Translations under genes and position numbers: made by a program
In this document: one piece after another, positions 49,766-64,000 of the stretch
How positions within the stretch are numbered: position 1 is the first letter of the stretch
Layout: every line of letters starts with the position of its first letter
The notes under the pieces: model-generated
What the model was told of the DNA's origin: nothing
Databases searched by the model: none
What the model saw: only the letters and a program-made list of their open reading frames with translations
NCBI GenBank assembly: GCA_036378175.1
Contig: DASUWY010000017.1
Span: forward strand, 1-64,000
From: Thermoleophilaceae bacterium
GTDB lineage: Bacteria > Actinomycetota > Thermoleophilia > Solirubrobacterales > Thermoleophilaceae
Reading direction: 5' to 3'
DNA length: 64,000 nt

Positions 49766-50641
49766 GTGAAGACGATGCGGAAGGCAGTGATGGTCGCGAT
49801 CGCCGTGGCGCTCGTGGTGGTGGCTGCGTGCGGCAGCGGGTCGAAGGCGCACCCGCCGACAGCCGGCGCGGCGGTGGCGCCGCCCGCGCCTAACGAGCCC
49901 CTGCCGCAGGATCCTCAGGCGCTCGCCGCGCGGCTCACCCAGGTGAGCGACGGCCTCGATGCCGCCATTGGCGACTGGCTCGGCAGCGGCAACCCGTCGC
50001 AGGGCGCGCCGCCCGGCGCCGTGAGCCTCGATGGGCTGTACGTGCAGCGCGCCTACCGCCTGCTCGCCCGGCGGCCGCGGCTCGCCTCGCGCACGCTGCC
50101 GTACCTTCCCGCTTCGCTGCGCCGGTCCGCCACCGACAGCGTGGCGGCTCTGCGTGACCTGATGCGCCTCACGCCGCCGAGCCCCAAGCACCGCCGCTTC
50201 AAGACCGGCCAGGCCGCGCCGGCCGGGAGGCTGCTGTCCTTCTACCGCGCCGCTCAGCGCCGCTTCGGCGTCGGCTGGAACGTGCTCGCCGCCGTGAACC
50301 TCGTGGAGACGGACTTCAACCGGATCCGCAGCTCGAGCTCCGCCGGGGCGCAGGGACCGATGCAGTTCATGGCGTCCACCTGGCGCGTGTACGGCCTGGG
50401 CGGCAACGTCGACGACCCGCACGACGCGATTCTCGGCGCCGCCAACTATCTGCACCGCTCCGGCGCGCCGGCGAGCTATCGCCAGGCGCTCTACCACTAC
50501 AACCCGTCGCCCCTCTACGTGGACGCCGTGCTCCGCTACGCGCGGCAGATGAGGACCTCTGCACGGGCTTTCTTCAGGTTCTACCCCTGGCAGGTGTTCA
50601 TCCGCACGTCCTCGGGAGAGCGCCGAATCACGGGTCCCTAA
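49766..50641 (+). CDS. lipoprotein lytic transglycosylase (SLT fold)
   Basis: 291 residues from GTG at 49766; the ATG at 49775 is an alternative. The N-terminus RKAVMVAIAVALVVVAAC is a lipoprotein signal with lipobox VAAC. After a Pro/Ala-rich linker the SLT domain occupies about residues 145-275: GVGWNVLAAVNLVETDFNRI with the catalytic Glu, SSSAGAQGPMQFMASTWRVY, HDAILGAANYLHRSGAPASY and ALYHYNPSPLYVDAVLRYA. It cleaves the peptidoglycan glycan strand at the outer membrane face of the wall. It ends 49 bases before the large-protein cluster on the same strand and may be its first gene or an unrelated neighbour. Confidence 0.9.
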   Translation: MKTMRKAVMVAIAVALVVVAACGSGSKAHPPTAGAAVAPPAPNEPLPQDPQALAARLTQVSDGLDAAIGDWLGSGNPSQGAPPGAVSLDGLYVQRAYRLLARRPRLASRTLPYLPASLRRSATDSVAALRDLMRLTPPSPKHRRFKTGQAAPAGRLLSFYRAAQRRFGVGWNVLAAVNLVETDFNRIRSSSSAGAQGPMQFMASTWRVYGLGGNVDDPHDAILGAANYLHRSGAPASYRQALYHYNPSPLYVDAVLRYARQMRTSARAFFRFYPWQVFIRTSSGERRITGP

Positions 50642-50690: not shown

Positions 50691-51455
50691 GTGGTTAGTG
50701 TCGCCCTATGGCTCGCACGCTCGCCCCCCGAACGGGTGCGATCACCTGAACGGGTGGCGTCTCTCGACCTGATGTACGGCGTGCCGCCTACCGACGACTA
50801 CCTGTCGCGCAGCAGCTTCCACTACTTCACGGCCATCAGCAACACGCTCGCCGTAGATGACTCGAGCGGCAGCGTCACGCAGGTGTTCATCCACGGCAAC
50901 TCGGACATCACGGTGATCCGCGGCGTGACCGATGTGAGCGGCCGCTATGCGATCTACCGCATGAGGCGGCTCTGGGAACGGCCGCTCAGCCCCACGCCGT
51001 CGGGGAGCGACAAGATCGGGGGCCCGACGGGCGCTTACACCCTGGGTGGCGCGCGGTTCGCGGTGGACAGCGACGACAAGCCGCCGGGCCAGTGGTTCGA
51101 CACGCCCGGCCTGAGCTACAACCACCGCAACACCGGCACCTATGAGCGCACCCTCCACGAGTTCGTGGCGGGCATCCAGGATCCCGAGAGCCGCAAGGTC
51201 CTCGACGATCCCGGCGCGGTCTACCTGTTCGTGGTGTTCGACATCTCGCCGAACTGGTACCGCGTGCGGATGTCGGCGGGGATCAACCTCACGGCCGCAC
51301 AGTGGAAGGGGTTGCGCGGCGTGTCGGGCACGAACCCCATTCCGAAGAACACCCCTTACCGGACTGAATCGTCGTCGGGAATCACCTGGGCCCTGGACAC
51401 GAGCTGGGTGGCCTGGGACACCTACAACAACCAGCTGCCTCTCCCCGGCCCGTGA
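50691..51455 (+). CDS. unknown protein, first gene of the large-protein cluster
   Basis: 254 residues from GTG at 50691; ATG at 50772 (residue 28, MYGVPPTDDYLS) is an equally good start, since neither has a clear ribosome binding site and the first 27 residues look non-conserved. No signal peptide or membrane segment. The sequence is rich in beta-strand patterns (SVTQVFIHGNSDITVIRGVT, VYLFVVFDISPNWYRVRMSA) with several Trp and Tyr, and may be a small beta-sandwich or carbohydrate-facing domain. I do not recognise it. Its stop overlaps the GTG of the next gene (GTGA), so it is translationally coupled to the lysozyme-like protein. Confidence 0.75.
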   Translation: MVSVALWLARSPPERVRSPERVASLDLMYGVPPTDDYLSRSSFHYFTAISNTLAVDDSSGSVTQVFIHGNSDITVIRGVTDVSGRYAIYRMRRLWERPLSPTPSGSDKIGGPTGAYTLGGARFAVDSDDKPPGQWFDTPGLSYNHRNTGTYERTLHEFVAGIQDPESRKVLDDPGAVYLFVVFDISPNWYRVRMSAGINLTAAQWKGLRGVSGTNPIPKNTPYRTESSSGITWALDTSWVAWDTYNNQLPLPGP

Positions 51456-52678
51456 ACCCCAACCGCACCGAGGACGTGACACCGATCGGGCTCGCCGCGG
51501 CGGATCTCGGCGAGGCGACCACCCAGGCGATCGCTCCCCCGATCAATGACGAGTGGTCGCTCATCTCGTACCTCACGTCTCCACTGGAGATCAACTCGCG
51601 GCAGGACTACGTGGTGATCAGTTCGGCCGACAGCGTGCCGGTGGGGAGCCTGAGCACCACCCCCGACCTCACCTACACCTGGACGGCGACGAACACCGAC
51701 AACGGCTTCATCCTCAAGCACGAGACCACCGAGGACGGCGTCTTCTACTTCATGTCCGGCCGGCCGGGCAACTACGAGGTGAAGGTGGTCGTGACCACGG
51801 GAGACACCGAGGTGGTCACGCTCACGCTCAACCAGCAGGTGGAGGCCCCGTCTCAGGAGTGGGAGCAGACGCAGGCGGAGCTCGAGTCCAACACCGCGCC
51901 CAAGTCGCAGATCTTCGCCATGCGCGAGATCTGCATCGAGATGAACCAGTACATCAAGGATGCCGCGGCCTCAACAGGGCCCAACGGCGTGCCCGCGCTG
52001 CTCGTGGCCGCGGTTCTGTTCATGGAGGCGTTCGGCCGGCCGAAGGACGGCAGCCCGGGTGCCGATGCGATCCGCAAGAAGCTCGCGGGCAGCGATTACT
52101 CGCCTCGCGAGGATGCCCTCAAGGAGAAGATCCAGCGCTTCCTGGGCCAGGGGCACTACCACCTGCATCTGCACGACATCCGGGAGGAGGAGCTCAAGCT
52201 CATTCGCGAGTTCCTTAACGAATGGAACGGGGTGGACCGCAAGTACATGGGCGGTAAGACGATCGGGCTCGGCCAGATCGCGATGACCACCACGTCCATG
52301 ATCACCGGCGACACGCCCTGGACCGAGCTGAACGAGTCGAAGCGCGTGGACATCCTCGATCAGATCGAGAAGGCCTGGCGCGCCCTCACGATTGAGACGA
52401 AGGTCGACATCTTCAACGACCTCCGCTTCCCCAAGCGCAACGCCTGGGTGGCCGCACATCTGCTCGCGCAGATCAAGAACCGGTCCCACCGCTTCCCCTC
52501 GATGACGGCGCAGGACGTGCTCTCGAGCGTCCAGGCCGTGACGATCATCGCCACCGAATACAACCGCGGCGCCTACGACACGCCGCTCTCCGACATGAAG
52601 ATCAACTTCAACGGCAACCGCGCCAAGCAGATCGTGATCCAGAGCGACAAGCAGATCGGGATCGAGAAGTACTTCTGA
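51452..52678 (+). CDS. lysozyme-like/transglycosylase-like protein with an N-terminal Ig/PKD-like domain, no signal peptide
   Basis: 408 residues from GTG at 51452. Residues about 30-130 form a beta-rich Ig/PKD-like domain (YVVISSADSVPVGSLS, TYTWTATNTDNGFILKHE, GNYEVKVVVTTGDTEVVTLT). Residues about 155-400 are helical and resemble the lysozyme superfamily: ALLVAAVLFMEAFGRP has a Glu at the usual catalytic place near 191, and GGKTIGLGQIAMTTTSMI near 267 matches the Gly-x-Gly-Gln segment of wall-cleaving transglycosylases. HHRFPS-type and YNRGAYDT segments follow near 370. No export signal was seen, so release would need lysis or another route. It overlaps genes on both sides (GTGA, TGATG). Confidence 0.65.
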   Translation: MNPNRTEDVTPIGLAAADLGEATTQAIAPPINDEWSLISYLTSPLEINSRQDYVVISSADSVPVGSLSTTPDLTYTWTATNTDNGFILKHETTEDGVFYFMSGRPGNYEVKVVVTTGDTEVVTLTLNQQVEAPSQEWEQTQAELESNTAPKSQIFAMREICIEMNQYIKDAAASTGPNGVPALLVAAVLFMEAFGRPKDGSPGADAIRKKLAGSDYSPREDALKEKIQRFLGQGHYHLHLHDIREEELKLIREFLNEWNGVDRKYMGGKTIGLGQIAMTTTSMITGDTPWTELNESKRVDILDQIEKAWRALTIETKVDIFNDLRFPKRNAWVAAHLLAQIKNRSHRFPSMTAQDVLSSVQAVTIIATEYNRGAYDTPLSDMKINFNGNRAKQIVIQSDKQIGIEKYF

Positions 52679-55600
52679 TGTCGAACGGCACCGACGACAC
52701 CACCCCCACTCCCGCCGGCCAGGCCGCACTGCTGCGCGAGCTGGGGATCCTGATCGCCCCGCTCGAGGACCTCGCGTCGGGCTCCGCCGCGACCAAGCTC
52801 GTGCGCGAGCTGGGATACGACTTCCCGGCGGCCACCGCGTTCCCCGTGGACTTCACCTCGCTGCTCACGGACGTGACGAACGTGGGCAAGGGCGTGGTGG
52901 CCCTCGAGGCGGCCGAAACCGACGATGACCAGCTCGACGCCGTGATTCAGCTGGCCGCGGATCTCGTGCCGCTGATCGAGGCGGTGGTGAAGCTCGAGCA
53001 GGACCTCGAGAACGGCCTTGCCGCGATGCAACAGCTCGTCACCCAGAGCGACATCACCACCGAGCTGCCGGTGCGCCTCCTCGACTACCTCGTGCTGCGC
53101 TACCTCATCGAGCGCGCCGGCCCGACCTTCGACGTGCTGCTGCTGGCCGGGCTCGTGGACTTCGTGTACCAGGAGGCGGACGCGAGCAAGTTCCAGCTCG
53201 ACGCCCTGATCCCAACGGTCTACTGGGACCGCATCCCCAAGCTGTTCTCGAAGCCAAGCTCGCTCCTCGACGAGGCCTACGGCTGGTCCACGGACTTCGA
53301 CGCCGACCTGATGATCCAGCGGCTGGGAAGCCTGGGGCGAAAGCTCGGGCTGCCGATGGGGACCTCATCGCAGTCGGACACCGTGGCGGACGCGCTGGGC
53401 CGCGATCAGGACTACCGCCACGAGCTGCGCCTGGCGCTCGTGCAGACGGACGGGTCGCTGCTCTCGAGCACCTACGGCGAGTTCGGCCTCCGCGCGTTCT
53501 CGGTTCCGGGTGCCGGGGCCCAGCAGCCCGGCATCGCGGTGATGCCCTACCTGGTCGGGTCGAGCGCTCTCACGGGAACACTCGGCAGCTGGACGCTCGA
53601 GCTCGACACCTCGCTCACCCTCAGCGACGGCGTGGCCGCGATCATGCGCCCGCCGAACTCGCTCGACGTTCAGGTGGGGCTGCTGAGCACGCCGGGCACG
53701 GAGACGAGCGGCACGCTCTCGCTGAAGGCGAGCGGCGTGAGCCAGTCGCCCGACGGCCTCATCCTGCTCGGCTCGCCGGGCGCCACCCGGATGTCCGTGG
53801 CCGAGCTCGACCTCGGGTTCACGGCGAACATCAGCACGCAGAGCGAGTTCGTGTTCGAGATCGGGATCGTCGACCTGCTGATCCTGGTGGAGGCGGGCGA
53901 CGGCGACGGCTTCATCCAGCGCATCCTGCCGGCCGACGGGATCAAGGCGCAGGCGTCCCTCGACGCGTCGTACTCGAGCACCCACGGTCTCACGCTGAAG
54001 GGCAGCGGGAGCCTCGAGGTGGACCTCCCGATCGGCATCACGATCGCGAACATCATCCGGATCGACGAGCTGATCGTCACGCTCGGCATCGACGAGACCG
54101 AGCTCACGCTCGCACTGGCGGTGAACGGCGGCCTCTCGATCGGGCCGGTGGCGGCGAGCGTGGAGGGAGTGGGCATCCGCGCCGGCCTCGCGCCGCAGTC
54201 GGACCGCAACGGCAACGGCGGCCCGCTCGCGGTGCACGTGGGCTTCAAGCCGCCCACGGGACTCGGGATGTCGGTGGACGCCGGGCCGGTCGGCGGCGGG
54301 GGCTTCCTGCTCTTCGACGAGGACCAGGAGCAGTACGGCGGCGGAATCGAGCTCGACCTGCAGGCCCTCGACATCACCGCGATCGGCCTGCTCACCACGC
54401 GCATGCCGGACGGCTCGCACGGCTTCTCGCTGATCGTCGTGCTCGCGGCCAAGTTCAGCCCGATCCAGCTCGGCTTCGGCTTCACGCTCAACGGCATCGG
54501 CGGCCTGGTGGGGATCAACCGCGGGATGAACACGGACTTCCTGCGCTCGGGCCTGAAGGACGGCACGCTCGACTCGATCCGCTTCCCGCACGACATCGCC
54601 GCCAACGCGCCGCGGATCATCAGCGACCTCCGCAACGCCTTCCCGGTGCAGGAGGACGAGTACGTGTTCGGGCCGATGGTGGCGATCGGCTGGGGCAGCC
54701 CCACGATCGTCGAGCTCGACATCGGCCTCGTGCTGCAGCTGCCGTCGCCGCTGGTGCTCGCGATCATCGGCACGCTCAAGCTGATGCTGCCGCCGATCGA
54801 GGGCGACGAGGACGCGGTGATCCTCAAGATCCAGCTCGACCTCCTCGGCGTGATCGACTTCGACAAGGGCGAGGTCTCCTTCGACGGCGTGCTCCGCGAC
54901 TCGCGCGTCGTGACCTTCCCCCTCAGCGGCCAGATGGCGATGCGCGCCTCCTTCGGCGACTCGCCGACGTTCGCCATGTCGGCCGGCGGCTTCAACCCCA
55001 AGTTCCAGCCCCCGCCGAAGTTCCCGTCGCTCGACCGCATGTCGCTCGCCCTCGCGGACGGCAACAACCCACGCCTGCGGCTCGACGCGTACTTCGCCGT
55101 CACCTCGAACAGCCTCCAGCTCGGCGCGAAGCTCGACCTGTACGTGGAGAAGGACCTCGGCGCCGTCGGCGACTTCACGGTGCAGGGCTACCTGAGCTTC
55201 GACGGCATGCTCAAGTTCTCCCCGTTCTCGTTCGAGGTGGACATCGGCGCGCAGCTCGAGCTCAAGCGCAACGGCGACGAGTTCTGCGGCATCACGCTGA
55301 GCATGACCCTCACCGGCCCGCAGCCGTGGCACGCGTGGGGCAACGCCGAGTTCAAGGTGCTCGGCTGCTCCAAGTCCGTGAGCTTCGACCTCACGGTGGG
55401 CGACCCACCGCCGCCCGCGCCGCTGCCGCCCGTGGATCCGCTGCCGCTTCTAGCCACCGCTCTGGCGGACAAGAACAACTGGAGCGCGAACCCGCCCACG
55501 GGCGTGGGCGCGATCGTGACGATGCGCGACCAGCCGCCGAGCGACGACGTGGTGGTGCATCCGCTCGGCACGCTCACGGTGCGCCAGCGGGTGGTGCCGC

Positions 55601-56181
55601 TCGACTTCCAGATCCAGCAGTACGGGCACGCGGACCTCGCCGGCGGGCGCAACACGTTCGGCATCGACTCGGTGAGCGTGGGCACCGCGCAGCCGGCGCA
55701 AACTGAGCTGCGCGACCACTTCGCGCCCGGCGACTTCCTCAAGCTGAGCGATGACGAGAAGCTCTCCCGTCCGGCATTCGAGAGCCTGAAGGCGGGGCTG
55801 AGCCTGGGCACGCCTGGTCTCACCGCCGGCACCAGGGCGCAGGCGAACTTCGGCTACAAGCAGGTGATCATCGACTCGCCCACCGAGGCGCGCACGCTCA
55901 GCCAGACCGGGACTATCTCCCCGGACGTGCTCAGCAGCCTGGCGAACGGCGGCGCGGCCGGACGGAGCGCGGTGCGCACGAGCGGCCAGGCGCGCTACGC
56001 GGGTCACAACGCGCCGGTGACGGTGAGCGACACCCCGTACGCCGTGGCCACGAAGGACGGCCTTGCCGCGCCCTCCGGCGTGACGGCGGGCGGCGACACG
56101 TACGCGGAGGCGGAAGCCGCACGCCGCGGCGCCGCCGACCCCGACTCGCTCCAGGTGGTTGGAGCGCACGAGCTCGCATGA
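52678..56181 (+). CDS. 1167-residue beta-rich protein resembling DUF6603
   Basis: No signal peptide. Residues 1-160 are helical (LLRELGILIAPLEDLASGSA, QLDAVIQLAADLVPLIEAVV). Residues about 200-905 are a long series of alternating hydrophobic beta strands with glycine turns, which I match from memory to DUF6603: FSPIQLGFGFTLNGIGGLVG near 598, VQEDEYVFGPMVAIGWGSP near 660, GGFNPKFQPPPKFPSLDRM near 770 and GPQPWHAWGNAEFKVLGCSK near 880. A Pro-rich linker (PPPPAPLPPVDPLP) at about 909-922 leads to a second domain with VVVHPLGTLTVRQRVVPLDF near 958 and LRDHFAPGDFLKLSDDEKLS near 1012. Function unknown. The start shares a base with the previous stop (TGATG) and the end overlaps the next gene (ATGA). 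Confidence 0.75.
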   Translation: MSNGTDDTTPTPAGQAALLRELGILIAPLEDLASGSAATKLVRELGYDFPAATAFPVDFTSLLTDVTNVGKGVVALEAAETDDDQLDAVIQLAADLVPLIEAVVKLEQDLENGLAAMQQLVTQSDITTELPVRLLDYLVLRYLIERAGPTFDVLLLAGLVDFVYQEADASKFQLDALIPTVYWDRIPKLFSKPSSLLDEAYGWSTDFDADLMIQRLGSLGRKLGLPMGTSSQSDTVADALGRDQDYRHELRLALVQTDGSLLSSTYGEFGLRAFSVPGAGAQQPGIAVMPYLVGSSALTGTLGSWTLELDTSLTLSDGVAAIMRPPNSLDVQVGLLSTPGTETSGTLSLKASGVSQSPDGLILLGSPGATRMSVAELDLGFTANISTQSEFVFEIGIVDLLILVEAGDGDGFIQRILPADGIKAQASLDASYSSTHGLTLKGSGSLEVDLPIGITIANIIRIDELIVTLGIDETELTLALAVNGGLSIGPVAASVEGVGIRAGLAPQSDRNGNGGPLAVHVGFKPPTGLGMSVDAGPVGGGGFLLFDEDQEQYGGGIELDLQALDITAIGLLTTRMPDGSHGFSLIVVLAAKFSPIQLGFGFTLNGIGGLVGINRGMNTDFLRSGLKDGTLDSIRFPHDIAANAPRIISDLRNAFPVQEDEYVFGPMVAIGWGSPTIVELDIGLVLQLPSPLVLAIIGTLKLMLPPIEGDEDAVILKIQLDLLGVIDFDKGEVSFDGVLRDSRVVTFPLSGQMAMRASFGDSPTFAMSAGGFNPKFQPPPKFPSLDRMSLALADGNNPRLRLDAYFAVTSNSLQLGAKLDLYVEKDLGAVGDFTVQGYLSFDGMLKFSPFSFEVDIGAQLELKRNGDEFCGITLSMTLTGPQPWHAWGNAEFKVLGCSKSVSFDLTVGDPPPPAPLPPVDPLPLLATALADKNNWSANPPTGVGAIVTMRDQPPSDDVVVHPLGTLTVRQRVVPLDFQIQQYGHADLAGGRNTFGIDSVSVGTAQPAQTELRDHFAPGDFLKLSDDEKLSRPAFESLKAGLSLGTPGLTAGTRAQANFGYKQVIIDSPTEARTLSQTGTISPDVLSSLANGGAAGRSAVRTSGQARYAGHNAPVTVSDTPYAVATKDGLAAPSGVTAGGDTYAEAEAARRGAADPDSLQVVGAHELA

Positions 56182-58940
56182 CTGTCGACACGAGCCAGGC
56201 CACCTACTCGTACTTCGCCTACGCGCGCGGCGGCGTGGCCGAGGGCGTGACCGGCACGTTCAGCGAGTCCGGCTCCTCCCGGGCGTCGCTCCAGGTGGAC
56301 ATCGAGCTGGCCGGAGGCGCAGCGCAGGCCACCCCGACCGTCACGGTCTACGGCCCCGGCGACGTGGTGGCGATCGATCCCAAGCAGGTGGTGCGCGTGG
56401 AGCCCAAGCCGGGCGCGAACGACTGGACGCCCAACTGGTTCCCGGCAATCGAGTTCGACCGCCCGGAGCTGCCATGGCTCTTCTCGCCCTACGCGGCCGC
56501 CTCAAACCGGCTGCGCCCGTGGCTCGTGCTCGTGGTGGTGGAGGAGCGCGAAGGCGTGACGTACGAGGAGAATCGCCAACCGGCCGGCCGCCCGGCGATC
56601 ACGCTCGACGGCGCCGCCACGAGCGATGACCCGCGCACGGTGCCGGACATCGAGCTGCCCGACCTCGACGACAGCTGGGCGTGGGCGCACGTGCACGTTT
56701 CCGGCAACTTCACGGGCAGCCAGCTCGATGCGGAGAACGATGCCCATCCCGAGCTCGTGGTGAGTCGGCTGGTGAGCCCAAGGCGGCTGCACGCCGGGCG
56801 CCGCTACCGCGCCTGCGTCGTGCCGGCGTTCGAGGCTGGGCGCGCGGCGGGGCTCGGCGAGGCCACGATCGCCTCCACGCTCGCGCCGGCATGGACGAAG
56901 GGGCAGCAGACCGTCACGCTTCCCGTCTACTACTCGTGGGAGTTCGGCACCGGGCTCGAGGGCGACTTCGAGAGCCTGGCCCGCCTGCTCGAGCCGATGC
57001 TTTCGCCCGCCGGGGTGGGCGCGCAGGCGATGGACGGCACACAGCCAGGCGGCGGGCTGCCCTCCGCGGGCGCGCATCTTGGCGGCCTGCAGGGCGCGCT
57101 GCAGGCGCCCGGCGCCAACCTCGGCAACCCGCCCGTGAAGCCGTTCGTGAACAAGCTGCGCGCGCTGCTGGGCGCGGGCGAGCCCAGCGCCGGGCAGCAG
57201 GCGCGCCCGCTCGAGGTGCCGCCGCCGATCTACGGACGCTGGCCGGCCGCCGCCACGAGCGTCCCCGCGATCATCGACTGGCGCCGGCCGATCCCCTGGC
57301 TCGCCGAGCTGAACCTCGATCCGCGCAATCGTGCCGCGGCCGCGCTCGGCACGCTCGTGGTGCAGCGCCATCAGGAGCAGCTCATGGCGTCCGCGTGGGC
57401 GCAGGTGGGCAAGATCGACCGCGCGAACCAGGCGCTTCACCAGGCGCAGCTCGCGCGCCAGGCGGCGAAGGCCACCTACAAGAACCGCTACGTGAGCCTC
57501 TCGAGCGACGCCGCGCTGCTGCTGCTCGGGAGCCCGGCTCTCCCGCGTATCCAGACCAGCGGCGGAACCCTGTTCGCGGACGTAGGGGCCACGCGGCTCG
57601 AGCCGGCCATCTCGCCCGCCTTCCGCCGGATCGCCCGCCGCCGCGGGCCGCTCTCGCGCCGCGCGGGAATGCGCCACAAGTGGCCGGAGAGCGCGGTGGC
57701 GCGGCTCAACTCGGACGCGAATGCGGCGCTGCCGCCCCGGAAGGCGCCGGACGGCACGCAGACGGCCTCGATCATCTCGGTCACGAGCAGCGTGGTGCAG
57801 GCGGGCAACCCCGGCGCACTCCATCTCGACGGACCGATGAACGGCGGGCAGTTCAAGCAATCGGCCGTTGAGGTGCAGACGGGTCTCGGCTGGGACCAGC
57901 GCGCCGACCCCTCGGGCCCGCCCGCGATCGACCTCGGTCAGGTGAGGGTGGAGCTGCTGAACGGGCTCGACCCCGACAAGACGATCCCCGCGCGCGTGGC
58001 CTCGCGCGTGAAGGTGCCGGCCTCCCGCGGCTGGTTGCCGAAGGATCCGCTCGAGGGGATCATGGCGGCGCCCGAGTTCCCCACGCCGATGCTCACCTCG
58101 CTGCGCGAGCTGTCGCAGGAGTACGTGCTGCCCGGCCTGTCCAACCTGCCGCCCAACTCGGTGACGGTGCTCGAGGCGAACAACCGCTTCATCAACAGCT
58201 ACATGATCGGCCTCAATCATGAGATGAGCCGCGAGCTCCTGTGGCGCGAGTACCCAACCGATCAGCGCGGCACCTACTTCCGGCAGTTCTGGGATCCGAG
58301 CACCCGCGTTCCGCCGCCCGGCGAGACCACGCCGCCCGACCTCCGCGACCTCAGCCCGCTTCACCTGTGGCAGGCCAGCCGCCGACTCGAGAAGGGAGAG
58401 GGCGCGGCCGCGTTCGGCAAGCTCGTGCTGGTGGCGCGCGGGCAGCTTCTGCGGCGGTTCCCGAACGCGAGCGTGTTCGCCATCGAGGCCACCGCCCCGG
58501 ACTCGAACGGCCACCGCGGACTCGGCAGCGGCGAGAAGTGGCCGGTGTTCGAGGGCAGGCTCGACCCCGACCTCACGTTCTTCGGCTTCGACCTGAGCCG
58601 CGAGCAGGCGAAGACCGGCGGCAGCGCCGGCCAGGGCTACTTCTTCGTGATCCAGCAGCACCCAACGGAGCCGCACTACGGGCTCGAGGAAGAGGAGGGG
58701 GGCACGAACAACGTGCCCGGCGGCCAGCCTCAGACCTGGGGCGACCTCTCCTGGGCACAGCTCGTGGACACGGAGGACGACCTCACGAAGATGTCGTACG
58801 CGCCCGCCACGCCGCCGTCGAGCGCCACGCCGGTGGACACGAGCGGCCCGGCCTGGGGCACCGACTCGGCGCAGGTGGCGGCGGTGGCGCTGCGCGACCC
58901 GGTGCGAGTGGCGATCCACGCGCGGGACCTCGTGTCATGA
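56178..58940 (+). CDS. 920-residue unknown protein of the large-protein cluster
   Basis: No signal peptide or membrane span. Conserved-looking blocks: VYGPGDVVAIDPKQVVRVEP near residue 57, WFPAIEFDRPELPWLFSPYA near 88, RLRPWLVLVVVEEREGV near 113, a helical middle with RIARRRGPLSRRAG near 490, and near the end LTFFGFDLSREQAKT and GYFFVIQQHPTEPHYGLEEE (about 800-840). I recall similar blocks in uncharacterised proteins of other bacteria, often in company with the neighbours here, but no studied member. Many Trp, Pro and beta patterns suggest an extracellular or particle-like structural protein. Both ends overlap neighbours by 4 bases. Confidence 0.75.
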   Translation: MTVDTSQATYSYFAYARGGVAEGVTGTFSESGSSRASLQVDIELAGGAAQATPTVTVYGPGDVVAIDPKQVVRVEPKPGANDWTPNWFPAIEFDRPELPWLFSPYAAASNRLRPWLVLVVVEEREGVTYEENRQPAGRPAITLDGAATSDDPRTVPDIELPDLDDSWAWAHVHVSGNFTGSQLDAENDAHPELVVSRLVSPRRLHAGRRYRACVVPAFEAGRAAGLGEATIASTLAPAWTKGQQTVTLPVYYSWEFGTGLEGDFESLARLLEPMLSPAGVGAQAMDGTQPGGGLPSAGAHLGGLQGALQAPGANLGNPPVKPFVNKLRALLGAGEPSAGQQARPLEVPPPIYGRWPAAATSVPAIIDWRRPIPWLAELNLDPRNRAAAALGTLVVQRHQEQLMASAWAQVGKIDRANQALHQAQLARQAAKATYKNRYVSLSSDAALLLLGSPALPRIQTSGGTLFADVGATRLEPAISPAFRRIARRRGPLSRRAGMRHKWPESAVARLNSDANAALPPRKAPDGTQTASIISVTSSVVQAGNPGALHLDGPMNGGQFKQSAVEVQTGLGWDQRADPSGPPAIDLGQVRVELLNGLDPDKTIPARVASRVKVPASRGWLPKDPLEGIMAAPEFPTPMLTSLRELSQEYVLPGLSNLPPNSVTVLEANNRFINSYMIGLNHEMSRELLWREYPTDQRGTYFRQFWDPSTRVPPPGETTPPDLRDLSPLHLWQASRRLEKGEGAAAFGKLVLVARGQLLRRFPNASVFAIEATAPDSNGHRGLGSGEKWPVFEGRLDPDLTFFGFDLSREQAKTGGSAGQGYFFVIQQHPTEPHYGLEEEEGGTNNVPGGQPQTWGDLSWAQLVDTEDDLTKMSYAPATPPSSATPVDTSGPAWGTDSAQVAAVALRDPVRVAIHARDLVS

Positions 58941-61900
58941 GCCCGGCCGTTGGAGACCCGCCGCAGGTGCTGTCGCTGCGCGAGCAGATCGCCGAGCTTC
59001 AGAAGAAGGCGGCGCAGGTGGCCGGCGAGGAGAAGCAGGTGAAGCAGGAGCTCGAGCGGGAGCGCGACCCCAGGGCCCGGCTGGCCCTCGAGAAGAAGCT
59101 CGTGCAGCTCGAGAGGGAGGCGCAGCAGATCGCCGGCCAGATCGCGAGCGCGCAGCAGCAGATCCTCAACCTGGGCTTCGAGCCGCTCGAGGACCCGCAG
59201 GTGGACGCGCTCGACGCCGCGCTGCCTCTCGCGCTGCTGCCCGTGCGGCTCGAGACGCGCTACGCCAAGGGCCCGTCCGGCGCGCGGCTCCTCATCCGCG
59301 TCTATCCCGACCAGATTCACCAGGACAGCCACGAGCCCGAGCTCACCGACGCCGAGGTGCAGTGGGGACGTCACTTCTGGGAGCAGTGGTGGCGCGCGGG
59401 CGGCGACGCCGACCAGGAGAGCTCGGCGTGGGCACAGCTGTCGGGACGCTTCAGCGCGAGGCGTGCGGCGTGGGTGGCCCGCGAGCTGCGTCCCACGAAC
59501 AACGCGCAGCGTCCCGCCGCTCCCGTGCCTGACTCCGACCCGCTCAACCCTGCACCGAGCTTTCCCTCCGTCGCGCGGCGTGCGTCCACCTGGACCCGCG
59601 CCCCGCTCGCGCGCCTGCTTCCCGACCGCTTCGTGGCGATCGGCTACCGCGGGGGCCAGCGGGTGTTCGTGCACTGGGGCAAGCAGATCGTGAAGGACGT
59701 GGCGATGGGTCCCTCGCCGAAGGCGCACGCGATCAACTTCCACGGCCTGCGGATCGACGACGAGATGCGCTGGATGCTCGACTTCCAGCGCGCGCTGGCC
59801 ATGGGACTCGCGCTGCAGATCGACCACGGCGATCACATCGAGCGCGGTCTCGACCTGCTGCTCGTCACCGGCGCGCGCTCGGGAAAGCCCACCAAGTCCG
59901 CGGGCACGCTCGAGGACCTGCTGCGCGCGCATCAGTACTCGGACGGCCTCGGCCTGGTGGACCCGGCCACGCCCACGAACAACTCCACGAGCAGCACGCG
60001 CTCCGGCTACGGCGCCCGCACGTCGGACACGGCGGCGCCGTCCGGCTGGCTCGGCGACGATCCCTCCGGCGCGGCGCCCGCCGCAGGCAGTGACGGCCAC
60101 AACCTGGTGCGCGCGCTCGGCGTGCCCGGCGAGACCCTCCTGGACGTGGAGGGCGCGGCGGCAGTGGCGTCGCAGCGTGCCGGGCTCATGCAGGCGGTGC
60201 TGTGGCCGGGCTGCGGCGGCTACGCGCTCGAGCAGCTCTTCGGCGGCACGCTCACCGCGCCGGAGCGAGCCGCGCTCGAGCAGCACATGGTTCGGTACGT
60301 GCGCCCGGCGGGGCCGCTGCCGACGATCCGCGTGGGCACGCAGCCGTACGGAGTGCTGCCCGTCGCGCCGCCCGAGAGCCTCGCGCAGGGCGCCGGGGCC
60401 GGCCTCAACAAGGCGGTTCAAGTGCTCGACGGGTTGCGCCGGTTCTGGCTCGACTCGCTGTCGAATGTGCCGCAGCTCCCGGGCGCGGATCCCGACGCCG
60501 ACCTCCTCGCGGTGCTCGCGTCGGACGCGCGCTCGGCCGCCTACGCCGCGCGCCCACTGATGGGCCCCGAGTACCTCGACGGCCTGATCACCCTCGCCGA
60601 CCCGGCGAATCAGGCGGCGGACCGCGCGGACCTCCAGCATCGTTCCGCCGCGCTTCTCAACCTGTTCCACAGGCTCGGCCTCACCGCCTCGCCGGCGATC
60701 ACGCGCTCCTTCTATGCGGAGGACTCGGCCCTGCTGCGAGCGCCGCTGATCCAGAAGCAGCCGCTCTCCGGCACGGATCCGCTCGTGGACGAGTACCTCG
60801 CCTGGCTCTTCGGCGCGACCTTCCCCGAGCTGCTCGCCGGCCACGACTCCAAGGGCAAGCCGTTCGGGGGCGACGAGCGGCGGCCGCTCCTGTGGCTCCT
60901 CGCGCGCACGGCCGTGCTCGAGCTTCTCGCCGATGAGGCCTTCGCCGTGCTGCTCGCCGAGCACCCTCCGGCCGTGACCGCTGCGGACCTCGACGAGCCC
61001 GAGCTGGTGACCCCTCAGGTGAAGACGCCGCTCTGGCGGCTCCACCAGTCGGACCCTCACACGGGCCGCCAGCTGGGGGATTCGCTCTGGCCGCACCCGG
61101 ACCCGAGCCTCGGGCCGGCGAGCGCTCGCGTGAAGCAGTACCTCCAGGAGCTGAAGCGCCTCAGCTCGGTGCCCTCGGCCGAGCTCGACCGGCTCTTCCG
61201 CGACACGCTCGACCTGCACTCGCACAGGCTCGACGCGTGGGTCACCTCGCTGGCCACCAGCCGTCTCGACGAGATGCGCACGACGCACCCGAGCGGCGCG
61301 CAGGTTGGCGCCTTCGGCTGGGTGGAGAACCTCGCGCCGGAGGGCGGCCTGCAGACGCTGCCCTCGCGCGCGCCCGTGAAGCCGAAGGAGTCCGCGGGCT
61401 GGGTGCACACCCCGTCGCTCGCGCACGCGGGCGCCGCGGCGGTGATGCGAAGCGGGCAGCTCTCCCACACCGGCCAGGGCACGGGCAAGCTGCTCGGCGT
61501 GAACATCTCGTCCAAGCGCGTGCGAGAGGTGGACTGGCTGTTCGACGGCATGCGCGGCGGCCAGAGCCTCGGGGCGATGATGGGCTACCGCTTCGAGCGG
61601 GCGCTCCACGATGTCACGAGTCCGCGGCTCGACGGCTTCCTGCCGGCGCTCCGCGCGTTCGCTCCGGAGAAGGCGGGCAAGCTCCTCCCCGCCAAGCAGA
61701 ACGGCTCGGCCCGAAGCGTGGTGGATGGCATGGCGCTGCTGCGCAACCGCGCCTCGATCCCGTGGGGCACCGGCGGCCTGCCTGCGCACGGCAGCTCGCA
61801 GCAGCAGGCGATCGACAAGCTGATCGACGGCCTGGCCGACCTCGCCGACGCCGTGAGCGACGTGGCGGTGGCCGAGAGCATCTACCACGCCGCTCAGGGC

Positions 61901-63496
61901 AATCCGCTGCGCGCCGGCGGAAGCCTCGAGGCGCTCGACCGCGGCGAGGCGCCGCCGCCCGAGCTCGAGTTCGCCCACCCGAGGCGCAGCGGCGTGGGCG
62001 TGAGCCACCGAGTGGGGATCCTGCGCTCGGCTTCGTCGCCGGACCCGTACGCGGGAAAGACCAGCTGGGCGCCCGCGACGGGCACGGCCACCAGCCCGCG
62101 GACGATCGCCGAGCCGGTGCTGAGCGAGATCTGCGCGCACCTCCTACCGCCGCCGGGGCGGGTTCACTGGCAGGCGCGCTACGACTCGAGCGATCCGCAC
62201 ACGGCGTCGCTGTGGAGGAGCTTCACGCTCGAGAACCTGAACGTGGAGCCGCTCGACGTGGTCTACACCGCCACGCCCACGAGCGCCGCGGCGGCCGGCG
62301 AGCTCGAGGCGCGCGCCATGCACGCGGCGCGCGCCGCGGAGCCCGGGTTCCAGGGCGAGATCGAGCTCGTGCTCGAACGCGACCCTCGCTGGGGCGCGAA
62401 CGTCCTCACCCTGCCGGAGCTCGCGGAGGTGGTGGCCGCGATCAGGGCGCTCATCGTGGACGGACGGGCGCTCGACGCGCGCGACCTGGCGGGGCCGCTC
62501 GACAGCGCCGACCCCGGCGTCGTGATGGCGACGCTCCAGAACGACCGTGCGGAGGCGTGCGCCACCGCGCTCGACACCGCCATCAGCGCGATGGGCAGCG
62601 CGAGCGGCGCAGAGGACGTGGCGAAGGCACTGCTCGGCCTGGCAGCGTTCGGCATCCCGGGCGCCGTGCCGGAATCGGAGGACGAGACGGCCCTCGACGC
62701 GCAGGCCACACGCGTGCTGGCGCTCGCGAACGACCGCAAGCAGGCATACGACGACCTCGTGACGGGCCTCGACCCCACCGCGACCGGCGCGGCCGCCGCG
62801 CTCGTGCAGGCGATCCAGGCGCTGCTCGGCCAGGCGTTCCGCGTGCTGCCGCCCTTCCAGGCGCCGCAGGGCCTCAGCTTCGCGGACTCGCACGCGCTGC
62901 TCGGCAACACGCCGCACGCGGTGGAGGACTGGATCGGGAGGCTCGCGCGCGTGCGCGAGGGCATGGGGCGCCTCGCCGAGGTGCGGCTTCACTCTGCGGT
63001 GGTCCAGCCGCTCGGCCGCCGGGGCGCCGCCGGCGACTTCGCGGTGGCGCAGTACCCGCAGCCGGACGCGGGCGAGCTGTGGTGCGCCCTTCCCACGTCC
63101 GACGGCAACCCGCCCGCGGGCGGCCGCACGTCGCTCGTGTTCGAGGGCGCTGAGAACGTGGATCTGTCCGCCCCGGTTGCCGGCCTCTTCGTGGACGAGT
63201 GGATCGAGGTGGTGCCGAACGAGCGCGAGACCACCGCGGTGGCATTTGGCTACGACGCCCCCGCCAGCTGCGCGCCCCAGTCGATCCTGCTCGGCGTGCC
63301 GCCGCGCCAGGCCAAGCAGTGGAGCGTCGCGGCCATCGAGGCGATCGCGCTGGAGGCGCACGAGCTCGCGAAGGTGAGGATGGTGGACCCGGACTCGCTC
63401 GGCGAGCTCGGCCACTTCCTGCCCGCCCTGTTCTTCGCCCACAACCTCCAGCAGGAGACGATCACCACCGATCTGCCCGGGGCCACAAGGTCATGA
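58937..63496 (+). CDS. 1519-residue unknown protein with an N-terminal coiled coil
   Basis: The start is ATG at 58937, in the ATGA overlap with the preceding gene; the frame upstream is open but is only the shadow of that gene. Residues about 12-75 are a strong coiled coil (LREQIAELQKKAAQVAGEEK, then KLVQLEREAQQIAGQIASAQ). Then come blocks that look conserved: LPVRLETRYAKGPSGARLLI near 100, RVYPDQIHQDSHEPELTDAE near 118, FVAIGYRGGQRVFVHWGKQI near 233, VLWPGCGGYALEQLFGGTL near 420 and PTIRVGTQPYGVLPVAPPES near 460. The rest is mixed helical, ending with FGYDAPASCAPQSILLGVPP and ELGHFLPALFFAHNL. No signal peptide, enzyme motif or Walker motif found. Function unknown. Confidence 0.75.
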   Translation: MSPAVGDPPQVLSLREQIAELQKKAAQVAGEEKQVKQELERERDPRARLALEKKLVQLEREAQQIAGQIASAQQQILNLGFEPLEDPQVDALDAALPLALLPVRLETRYAKGPSGARLLIRVYPDQIHQDSHEPELTDAEVQWGRHFWEQWWRAGGDADQESSAWAQLSGRFSARRAAWVARELRPTNNAQRPAAPVPDSDPLNPAPSFPSVARRASTWTRAPLARLLPDRFVAIGYRGGQRVFVHWGKQIVKDVAMGPSPKAHAINFHGLRIDDEMRWMLDFQRALAMGLALQIDHGDHIERGLDLLLVTGARSGKPTKSAGTLEDLLRAHQYSDGLGLVDPATPTNNSTSSTRSGYGARTSDTAAPSGWLGDDPSGAAPAAGSDGHNLVRALGVPGETLLDVEGAAAVASQRAGLMQAVLWPGCGGYALEQLFGGTLTAPERAALEQHMVRYVRPAGPLPTIRVGTQPYGVLPVAPPESLAQGAGAGLNKAVQVLDGLRRFWLDSLSNVPQLPGADPDADLLAVLASDARSAAYAARPLMGPEYLDGLITLADPANQAADRADLQHRSAALLNLFHRLGLTASPAITRSFYAEDSALLRAPLIQKQPLSGTDPLVDEYLAWLFGATFPELLAGHDSKGKPFGGDERRPLLWLLARTAVLELLADEAFAVLLAEHPPAVTAADLDEPELVTPQVKTPLWRLHQSDPHTGRQLGDSLWPHPDPSLGPASARVKQYLQELKRLSSVPSAELDRLFRDTLDLHSHRLDAWVTSLATSRLDEMRTTHPSGAQVGAFGWVENLAPEGGLQTLPSRAPVKPKESAGWVHTPSLAHAGAAAVMRSGQLSHTGQGTGKLLGVNISSKRVREVDWLFDGMRGGQSLGAMMGYRFERALHDVTSPRLDGFLPALRAFAPEKAGKLLPAKQNGSARSVVDGMALLRNRASIPWGTGGLPAHGSSQQQAIDKLIDGLADLADAVSDVAVAESIYHAAQGNPLRAGGSLEALDRGEAPPPELEFAHPRRSGVGVSHRVGILRSASSPDPYAGKTSWAPATGTATSPRTIAEPVLSEICAHLLPPPGRVHWQARYDSSDPHTASLWRSFTLENLNVEPLDVVYTATPTSAAAAGELEARAMHAARAAEPGFQGEIELVLERDPRWGANVLTLPELAEVVAAIRALIVDGRALDARDLAGPLDSADPGVVMATLQNDRAEACATALDTAISAMGSASGAEDVAKALLGLAAFGIPGAVPESEDETALDAQATRVLALANDRKQAYDDLVTGLDPTATGAAAALVQAIQALLGQAFRVLPPFQAPQGLSFADSHALLGNTPHAVEDWIGRLARVREGMGRLAEVRLHSAVVQPLGRRGAAGDFAVAQYPQPDAGELWCALPTSDGNPPAGGRTSLVFEGAENVDLSAPVAGLFVDEWIEVVPNERETTAVAFGYDAPASCAPQSILLGVPPRQAKQWSVAAIEAIALEAHELAKVRMVDPDSLGELGHFLPALFFAHNLQQETITTDLPGATRS

Positions 63497-64000
63497 CCTC
63501 GATCACCACCTGGAACCGGATCGAGTCGCGCACGCGGGACCGCTCGCTTCCGGGGCTCGACGCCCGGACGGCGGATCCGCTGTGGCTGCTCGGCAGGCAG
63601 TGGCAGGTGGGCGAGTTCCAGGGCGAGGACGCCGGCTCGCCAGCGGTGGCGCGCTTGCGGGCCACCGTGGGACAGCTCAGCCGCGTTGCGCCGGGTGTGC
63701 CCGCCGGCCACGTGACCGGCGCCCCGTACGACGCCACCGCCACCCCGCTCGAAACCGTGGTGGAAAGCGAGCCGGCGCTCGAGCCCGGCGAGACCAACGT
63801 GCGTCTCGCGGCCGAATCGGGGCTCGTGTTCTGGCGCGAGCTCGACGCCGTCGGACTTTCGTTCCGGCGCGAGGACTACCTGCTCGACTGGTGCATCGAG
63901 CGTCCGACGCGCGAGCAGAGGGCGAAGCTGGACGGCGCCACCGCCCGCTTCCTGGACACCGTGGCCGAGCGCGTGCCGGACGGGCTTGCGTTGCGCGACG
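63493..64000 (+). CDS. unknown protein, last visible gene of the cluster, partial (runs off the right edge)
   Basis: 169 residues are visible from ATG at 63493, in an ATGA overlap with the previous gene. SITTWNRIESRTRDRSLPGL is followed by ARTADPLWLLGRQWQVGEFQ and GEDAGSPAVARLRA. This Trp-rich opening is the most recognisable piece of the cluster and I recall it in uncharacterised proteins elsewhere. No function can be given. The unit continues beyond the window, so the full gene set is not seen. Confidence 0.75.
   Translation, partial: MTSITTWNRIESRTRDRSLPGLDARTADPLWLLGRQWQVGEFQGEDAGSPAVARLRATVGQLSRVAPGVPAGHVTGAPYDATATPLETVVESEPALEPGETNVRLAAESGLVFWRELDAVGLSFRREDYLLDWCIERPTREQRAKLDGATARFLDTVAERVPDGLALRD

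Follow-up and report, generated by a model that had tools for sequence, protein, structure and literature searches.

The operon and its conserved part

Bases 1-64000 of the 129,376-base contig DASUWY010000017.1 of a Thermoleophilaceae bacterium (hereafter the window) end in an operon of six genes, P1-P6, which lie on the plus strand from 50691 to 65226, just beyond the window end. Each of the five pairs of consecutive genes shares 1-4 bases, the junction motifs from P1/P2 to P5/P6 being GTGA, TGATG, ATGA, ATGA and ATGA. The first two genes encode P1 (50691..51455, 254 amino acids), a protein of no known family, and P2 (51452..52678, 408 amino acids), which occupies a position of variable gene content. 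They are followed by the genes for four core proteins: P3 (52678..56181, 1167 amino acids), which contains the DUF6603 domain (PF20248), P4 (56178..58940, 920 amino acids), P5 (58937..63496, 1519 amino acids), and P6, of which the window holds the first 169 of 577 residues (63493..64000). An earlier note on this DNA had described the same six overlapping genes; its lengths, coordinates and junctions all agree with the open reading frames (ORFs).

The co-travelling unit is formed by the last four genes, P3-P6 (the cassette), and not by all six. They occur together in haloarchaea as well as in at least eight phyla of bacteria, and plasmids are frequent carriers. A genome scan for P4 yielded 15 loci in Anaerolineae, Kofleriaceae, Nitrospira, Cellulomonas, Amycolatopsis, Pseudorhodobacter, Sphingopyxis, Devosia and Chitinophagales, to which plasmid records added Streptomyces, Nocardia, Rhizobium, Paraburkholderia and Gemmatirosa, as well as the haloarchaea Salinigranum, Halalkalicoccus, Halobellus and Natrinema. 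The order P3-P4-P5-P6 is kept at nearly every locus with a contig long enough to judge, an exception being one genome (G1033) with P6 upstream of P3-P4. In another genome (G248) P5 and P6 are fused as a single 2101-residue frame, and in Rhizobium P4 and P5 are each divided into adjacent genes. Identity to relatives is about 26-41% in most P3-P6 comparisons. The searches made for P1 and P2 outside this operon gave no match; those for P2 covered 18 other cassette genomes and plasmids. Thus, the discrete undescribed system co-occurring in distant phyla, as anticipated in the earlier note, exists for P3-P6 and does not extend to P1 and P2.

The presence of the core genes is sporadic. In whole-genome searches, P4 was detected in 3 of 61 close relatives and P6 in 10 of 396 genomes of the phylum, while P3 was detected in 11 of 396, 10 of 237 and 14 of 148 genomes of the phyla of Cellulomonas, Kofleriaceae and Nitrospira, respectively. 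Genomes belonging to the phylum of the host recurred, with identical match coordinates, in the sample for the Cellulomonas phylum, which points to an actinomycetote as host. Among the genomes given the P6 test, P6 was present in 24 of the 25 with a strong, full-length P3 match and in none of the eight without P3; in two fragmented assemblies P6 was present and P3 was undetected. P6 was also missing from all seven genomes whose sole resemblance to DUF6603 is a short stretch within a far longer frame, and hence DUF6603 has a second, different context. Such short stretches were seen in frames of 1500-3800 residues in Myxococcota and Actinomycetota (L078, L079, L080, L081, L082, L084, L072, L073). 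An ordinary secreted-enzyme operon with unrelated hypothetical genes adjacent by chance might be suspected, as P3-P6 have no assigned function. For P3-P6, this explanation is refuted by the co-occurrence counts (24/25 against 0/8), the order kept across domains of life, and the P5-P6 fusion, and as an account of the locus we consider it the least probable of all.

Pairwise identities of the four proteins correlate with r of 0.93-0.96 over 24 loci, and with r of 0.36-0.66 once close pairs are removed. The tree of concatenated P3-P6 contradicts species relations: Amycolatopsis falls together with Rhizobium, and Nocardia falls together with Paraburkholderia. It also groups the very similar cassettes of Devosia, Sphingopyxis and Pseudorhodobacter, which represent three orders. 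Judging from these sequence comparisons, P3-P6 are inherited and horizontally transferred as a unit. A phage origin of the cassette was rejected. IMG/VR contained no relative, and the one match in phage collections, MT835531 (L027), is an 'unverified' record labelled 'Bacteriophage sp.', in which the cassette neighbours are a zinc dehydrogenase, a periplasmic binding protein, an nSTAND/BTAD regulator, and AlkZ. With these neighbours, and with no phage gene among the ORFs scanned, the record looks like an ordinary bacterial contig. BTAD-type regulators were seen near the cassette in two loci, L027 (13739-18814, with nSTAND) and L028 (2791-3912).

Residues 460-1026 of P3 match DUF6603 with an E-value of 6e-133 and 444.4 bits, exceeding the curated cut-off of 27, and the alignment takes in profile positions 8-501 of 502. 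DUF6603 is a name without function, and no open-access paper on DUF6603 or PF20248 was found, nor did broader literature searches yield anything on the cassette. Pfam, NCBIfam, PHROGs and PADLOC gave no match of note for P1, P2, P4, P5 or P6. About 25 relatives were used to build profiles of P3, P4 and P6, none of which retrieved a credible PDB chain, and for P3 searches of PDB by sequence gave nothing credible either. A role in anti-phage defence was rejected, the six proteins having no PADLOC model match. Paralogy among P3-P6 was rejected as well, profile comparison being negative except for one weak P5/P6 stretch. The three sequence blocks which the earlier note had quoted as common to the proteins are each confined to one of them (P4, P5 and P6), and that suggestion needs correction. 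The Trp/Pro-rich, beta-heavy character attributed to all six proteins holds in part: tryptophan content is high in P1 (3.2%), P4 and P6, lower in P5 and P2, and not high in P3, the protein for which strong beta content was demonstrated.

The exchangeable gene upstream of P3

Cassettes differ in the gene that immediately precedes P3, and this exchangeable hydrolase slot beside a fixed core, missed in the earlier reading, is the most telling feature of the system. The slot is occupied by PhoD-like phosphatases (L011, L023, L019, L109, L115, L118), subtilases (L013, L112), a phospholipase D (PLD; L113, beside a second P3), a trypsin-like protein (L032), or an M64-type peptidase (L119); in L026 and L118 a peptidoglycan-binding domain is joined to the PhoD-like architecture. 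The catalytic motifs are intact: HGTHV and GTSMAAP in the subtilases, HxK(x4)D motifs in PLD, HEIGH in the M64-type peptidase, GDQIY and DHE in the PhoD-like proteins. Enzymes of these families usually function outside the cytoplasm. Subtilase and trypsin-like slot proteins (L032, L013, L033) have in common a C-terminal segment of about 100-140 residues, which is a possible docking element. Many Nitrospira genomes have two P3 copies near each other; in those read (L112/L113, L013), a subtilase gene lies between the copies and a PLD-type gene before them.

The slot of the window is taken by P2, which combines a beta N-terminal part with a lysozyme/SLT-like helical part. The latter contains the motif order E-GxxQ-YNxG expected for SLT/goose-type lysozymes (E192 in FMEAFG, GLGQ at 272, EYNRG at 369). 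A PDB match to soluble lytic transglycosylase B is weak (E-value 0.07), and no Pfam SLT match was obtained. The lysozyme-like member mentioned in the earlier note is P2, its assignment as such an enzyme being a weak one. A separate gene for an SLT-type lytic transglycosylase lipoprotein (49766-50641) immediately precedes the operon, in the same orientation. It is possibly linked to P2 in function; this gene, like P1, may also be adjacent by chance.

Predicted structure of P3 and location signals

The core of P3 (residues 395-1060) was modelled with AlphaFold2 using an alignment of 28 sequences. The model has a predicted local distance difference test score (pLDDT) of 84.9 and consists of about 28 antiparallel strands with a mean length of 12 residues. 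The alternate-residue difference in alignment-averaged hydropathy is 2.95, compared to 1.21 (maximum 1.83) in 2000 shuffles; as the observed value is beyond the shuffled maximum, one face of the sheet is hydrophobic through most of the model. Hence the P3 core is predicted with good confidence to form a strongly amphipathic beta meander.

No match below an E-value of 1e-3 was found by Foldseek for this model in PDB. With VIA-align, the top match was the beta belt of ApoB100 (Z 14.0, root-mean-square deviation (rmsd) 10.5 A, 288 residues), and many porins were listed with Z of 11-13 and rmsd of 11-14 A. As a Z of about 1 separates the two and the rmsd is large throughout, the overall shape of P3 is not fixed by fold matches. 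AsmA/TamB or VPS13-like folds were not among the fold matches listed, which does not exclude them. Among viral predicted structures one match below 1e-3 was found, with a template modelling score of 0.20, which is not interpretable. The ApoB beta belt and bridge-like lipid proteins (AsmA, TamB, YhdP) resemble P3 in having a very long antiparallel amphipathic beta sheet, but they have no sequence match to it and the alignment rmsd exceeds 10 A. Moreover, TamB and its relatives are membrane-anchored envelope proteins of Gram-negative bacteria, whereas the cassette is also found, without signal sequences, in monoderm Actinomycetota and haloarchaea. Outer-membrane porins and ushers are amphipathic beta meanders too; however, P3 has no convincing signal peptide, and many hosts of the cassette have no outer membrane.

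The absence of Walker motifs, signal peptides and membrane segments reported in the earlier note was borne out: Walker A does not occur in P1-P6, and in a crude hydropathy screen neither P1-P6 nor most of the homologues and slot proteins showed a convincing signal peptide or transmembrane helix. The neighbouring SLT lipoprotein, used as a positive control in this screen, was clearly flagged. Domains of extracellular type (BGTF surface, lamin tail, VCBS) are inserted in P4-P6 of some archaeal and Streptomyces members.

The lack of signal peptides, together with a sheet hydrophobic on one face and having the ApoB100 beta belt as its top VIA-align match, would suit an intracellular lipid- or polymer-associated body, in which P3 would coat lipid like an apolipoprotein beta belt, P4-P6 would form a shell, and the hydrolases would be turnover enzymes, the PhoD- and PLD-type enzymes indeed acting on phosphodiesters. 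However, the lysozyme-like, peptidoglycan-binding and M64-type slot proteins and the inserted surface-type domains point outside the cell, and the ApoB match has a large rmsd and a score near that of porins. We consider such a body rather unlikely.

Possible function of the cassette

Extracellular contractile injection systems (eCIS) are encoded by a conserved operon of structural genes accompanied by variable genes for toxins or enzymes, are found in bacteria and archaea, and are thought to be released by lysis and not by Sec (PMC11297309). The cassette is similar to them in the variable enzyme genes alongside a conserved operon and in the broad bacterial and archaeal spread, but contains no homologue of sheath, tube, baseplate or spike: no tail tube, baseplate or spike match was found for P1-P6 in Pfam or PHROGs at E-values up to 1, nor for full-length P6 in Pfam. 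The sheath family PF04984 was sought in 16 cassette genomes, with Escherichia coli and Bacillus subtilis as controls, both positive. Nine genomes, including that of the window (95% complete), gave no match, four gave matches above the cut-off, and three more gave weak ones. As tail parts are lacking in the cassette and a sheath match in the window genome and eight other carriers, eCIS membership fails. The core could still be an accessory of a contractile injection system, providing extra cargo or needle material, as the phylum range and the four genomes with sheath matches (plus three weak) would allow, but the nine carriers without a sheath match and the absence of tail-type domains in P1-P6 make this very improbable. 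Of the structures suggested in the earlier note, a multi-subunit particle or surface assembly is plausible and favoured here, whereas a contractile injection device is unsupported.

Our tentative explanation, which we rate at somewhat less than an even chance, is that P3-P6 are one co-inherited assembly carrying or displaying the exchangeable hydrolase encoded just upstream. The four proteins would be subunits of one particle built without Sec/Tat signals, which would escort or display its hydrolase as cargo (P2 in the case of the window). P3 would contact lipid or insert into a membrane by its long one-face-hydrophobic sheet, and P4-P6 could serve as a Trp-rich scaffold and as subunits contacting target and cargo. 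In this proposal the enzyme varies because it is matched to the substrate, which may be a phospholipid or another phosphodiester, protein, or peptidoglycan. The enzyme would act outside the producer after release or non-classical export; lytic or non-classical release, by analogy with eCIS (PMC11297309), would account for the absent signals.

Several points weigh against the proposed assembly. First, physical association, secretion and enzymatic activity are inferred from genes. Second, a signal-less system could equally be cytoplasmic. Third, the Cellulomonas set, the Nocardia upstream region and Gemmatirosa have no recognisable enzyme directly 5' of P3, and the enzyme call for P2 is itself weak. 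Finally, the P6 model (15 sequences) was poor, with a pLDDT of 51, and was not used.

If formed, the assembly may also stay on the producer as a surface or matrix display complex, holding the hydrolase for feeding or for remodelling of the cell's own envelope. The surface-type domains in haloarchaeal P5 and P6, the SLT lipoprotein gene upstream in the window, and the variety of hydrolases, which suits nutrition, are consistent with this; on the other hand, the core showed no recognisable anchor, sorting motif or signal peptide, and a sporadic, plasmid-borne, horizontally mobile distribution is less usual for housekeeping envelope roles. The chance of such a complex appears small. The more far-reaching form of the proposal, in which P3-P6 would be an undescribed, self-contained, signal-less particle, with no relation to either phage tails or known toxin complexes, that delivers interchangeable hydrolases to the envelopes of other cells, is doubtful, if somewhat less so.

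Of the four core proteins, only P3 has a family in the four libraries searched, yet all four are inherited jointly across bacteria and haloarchaea beside differing enzymes. Should the four be parts of a single assembly, this would be a machine of a new kind for carrying enzymes, its modular cargo slot repeatedly swapped in nature, and, the cassette being about 13 kb and thus small enough for expression and imaging, the question is directly testable.

Downstream of the operon, an AlkZ-like DNA glycosylase gene begins 14 bp after P6 and is followed by a BipA/TypA-like GTPase gene; with these genes directly 3' of P6, P6 appears to be the last gene of the functional unit. Shortly further downstream, a gene of the 'Beta protein' family (PF14350) is located on the minus strand (L002:6317-7396, equivalent to 69716-70795 in window numbering). 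In an Anaerolineae genome, P6 is followed by a gene whose product resembles tail fibres and has a weak S74 chaperone domain (L008:9287-10264).
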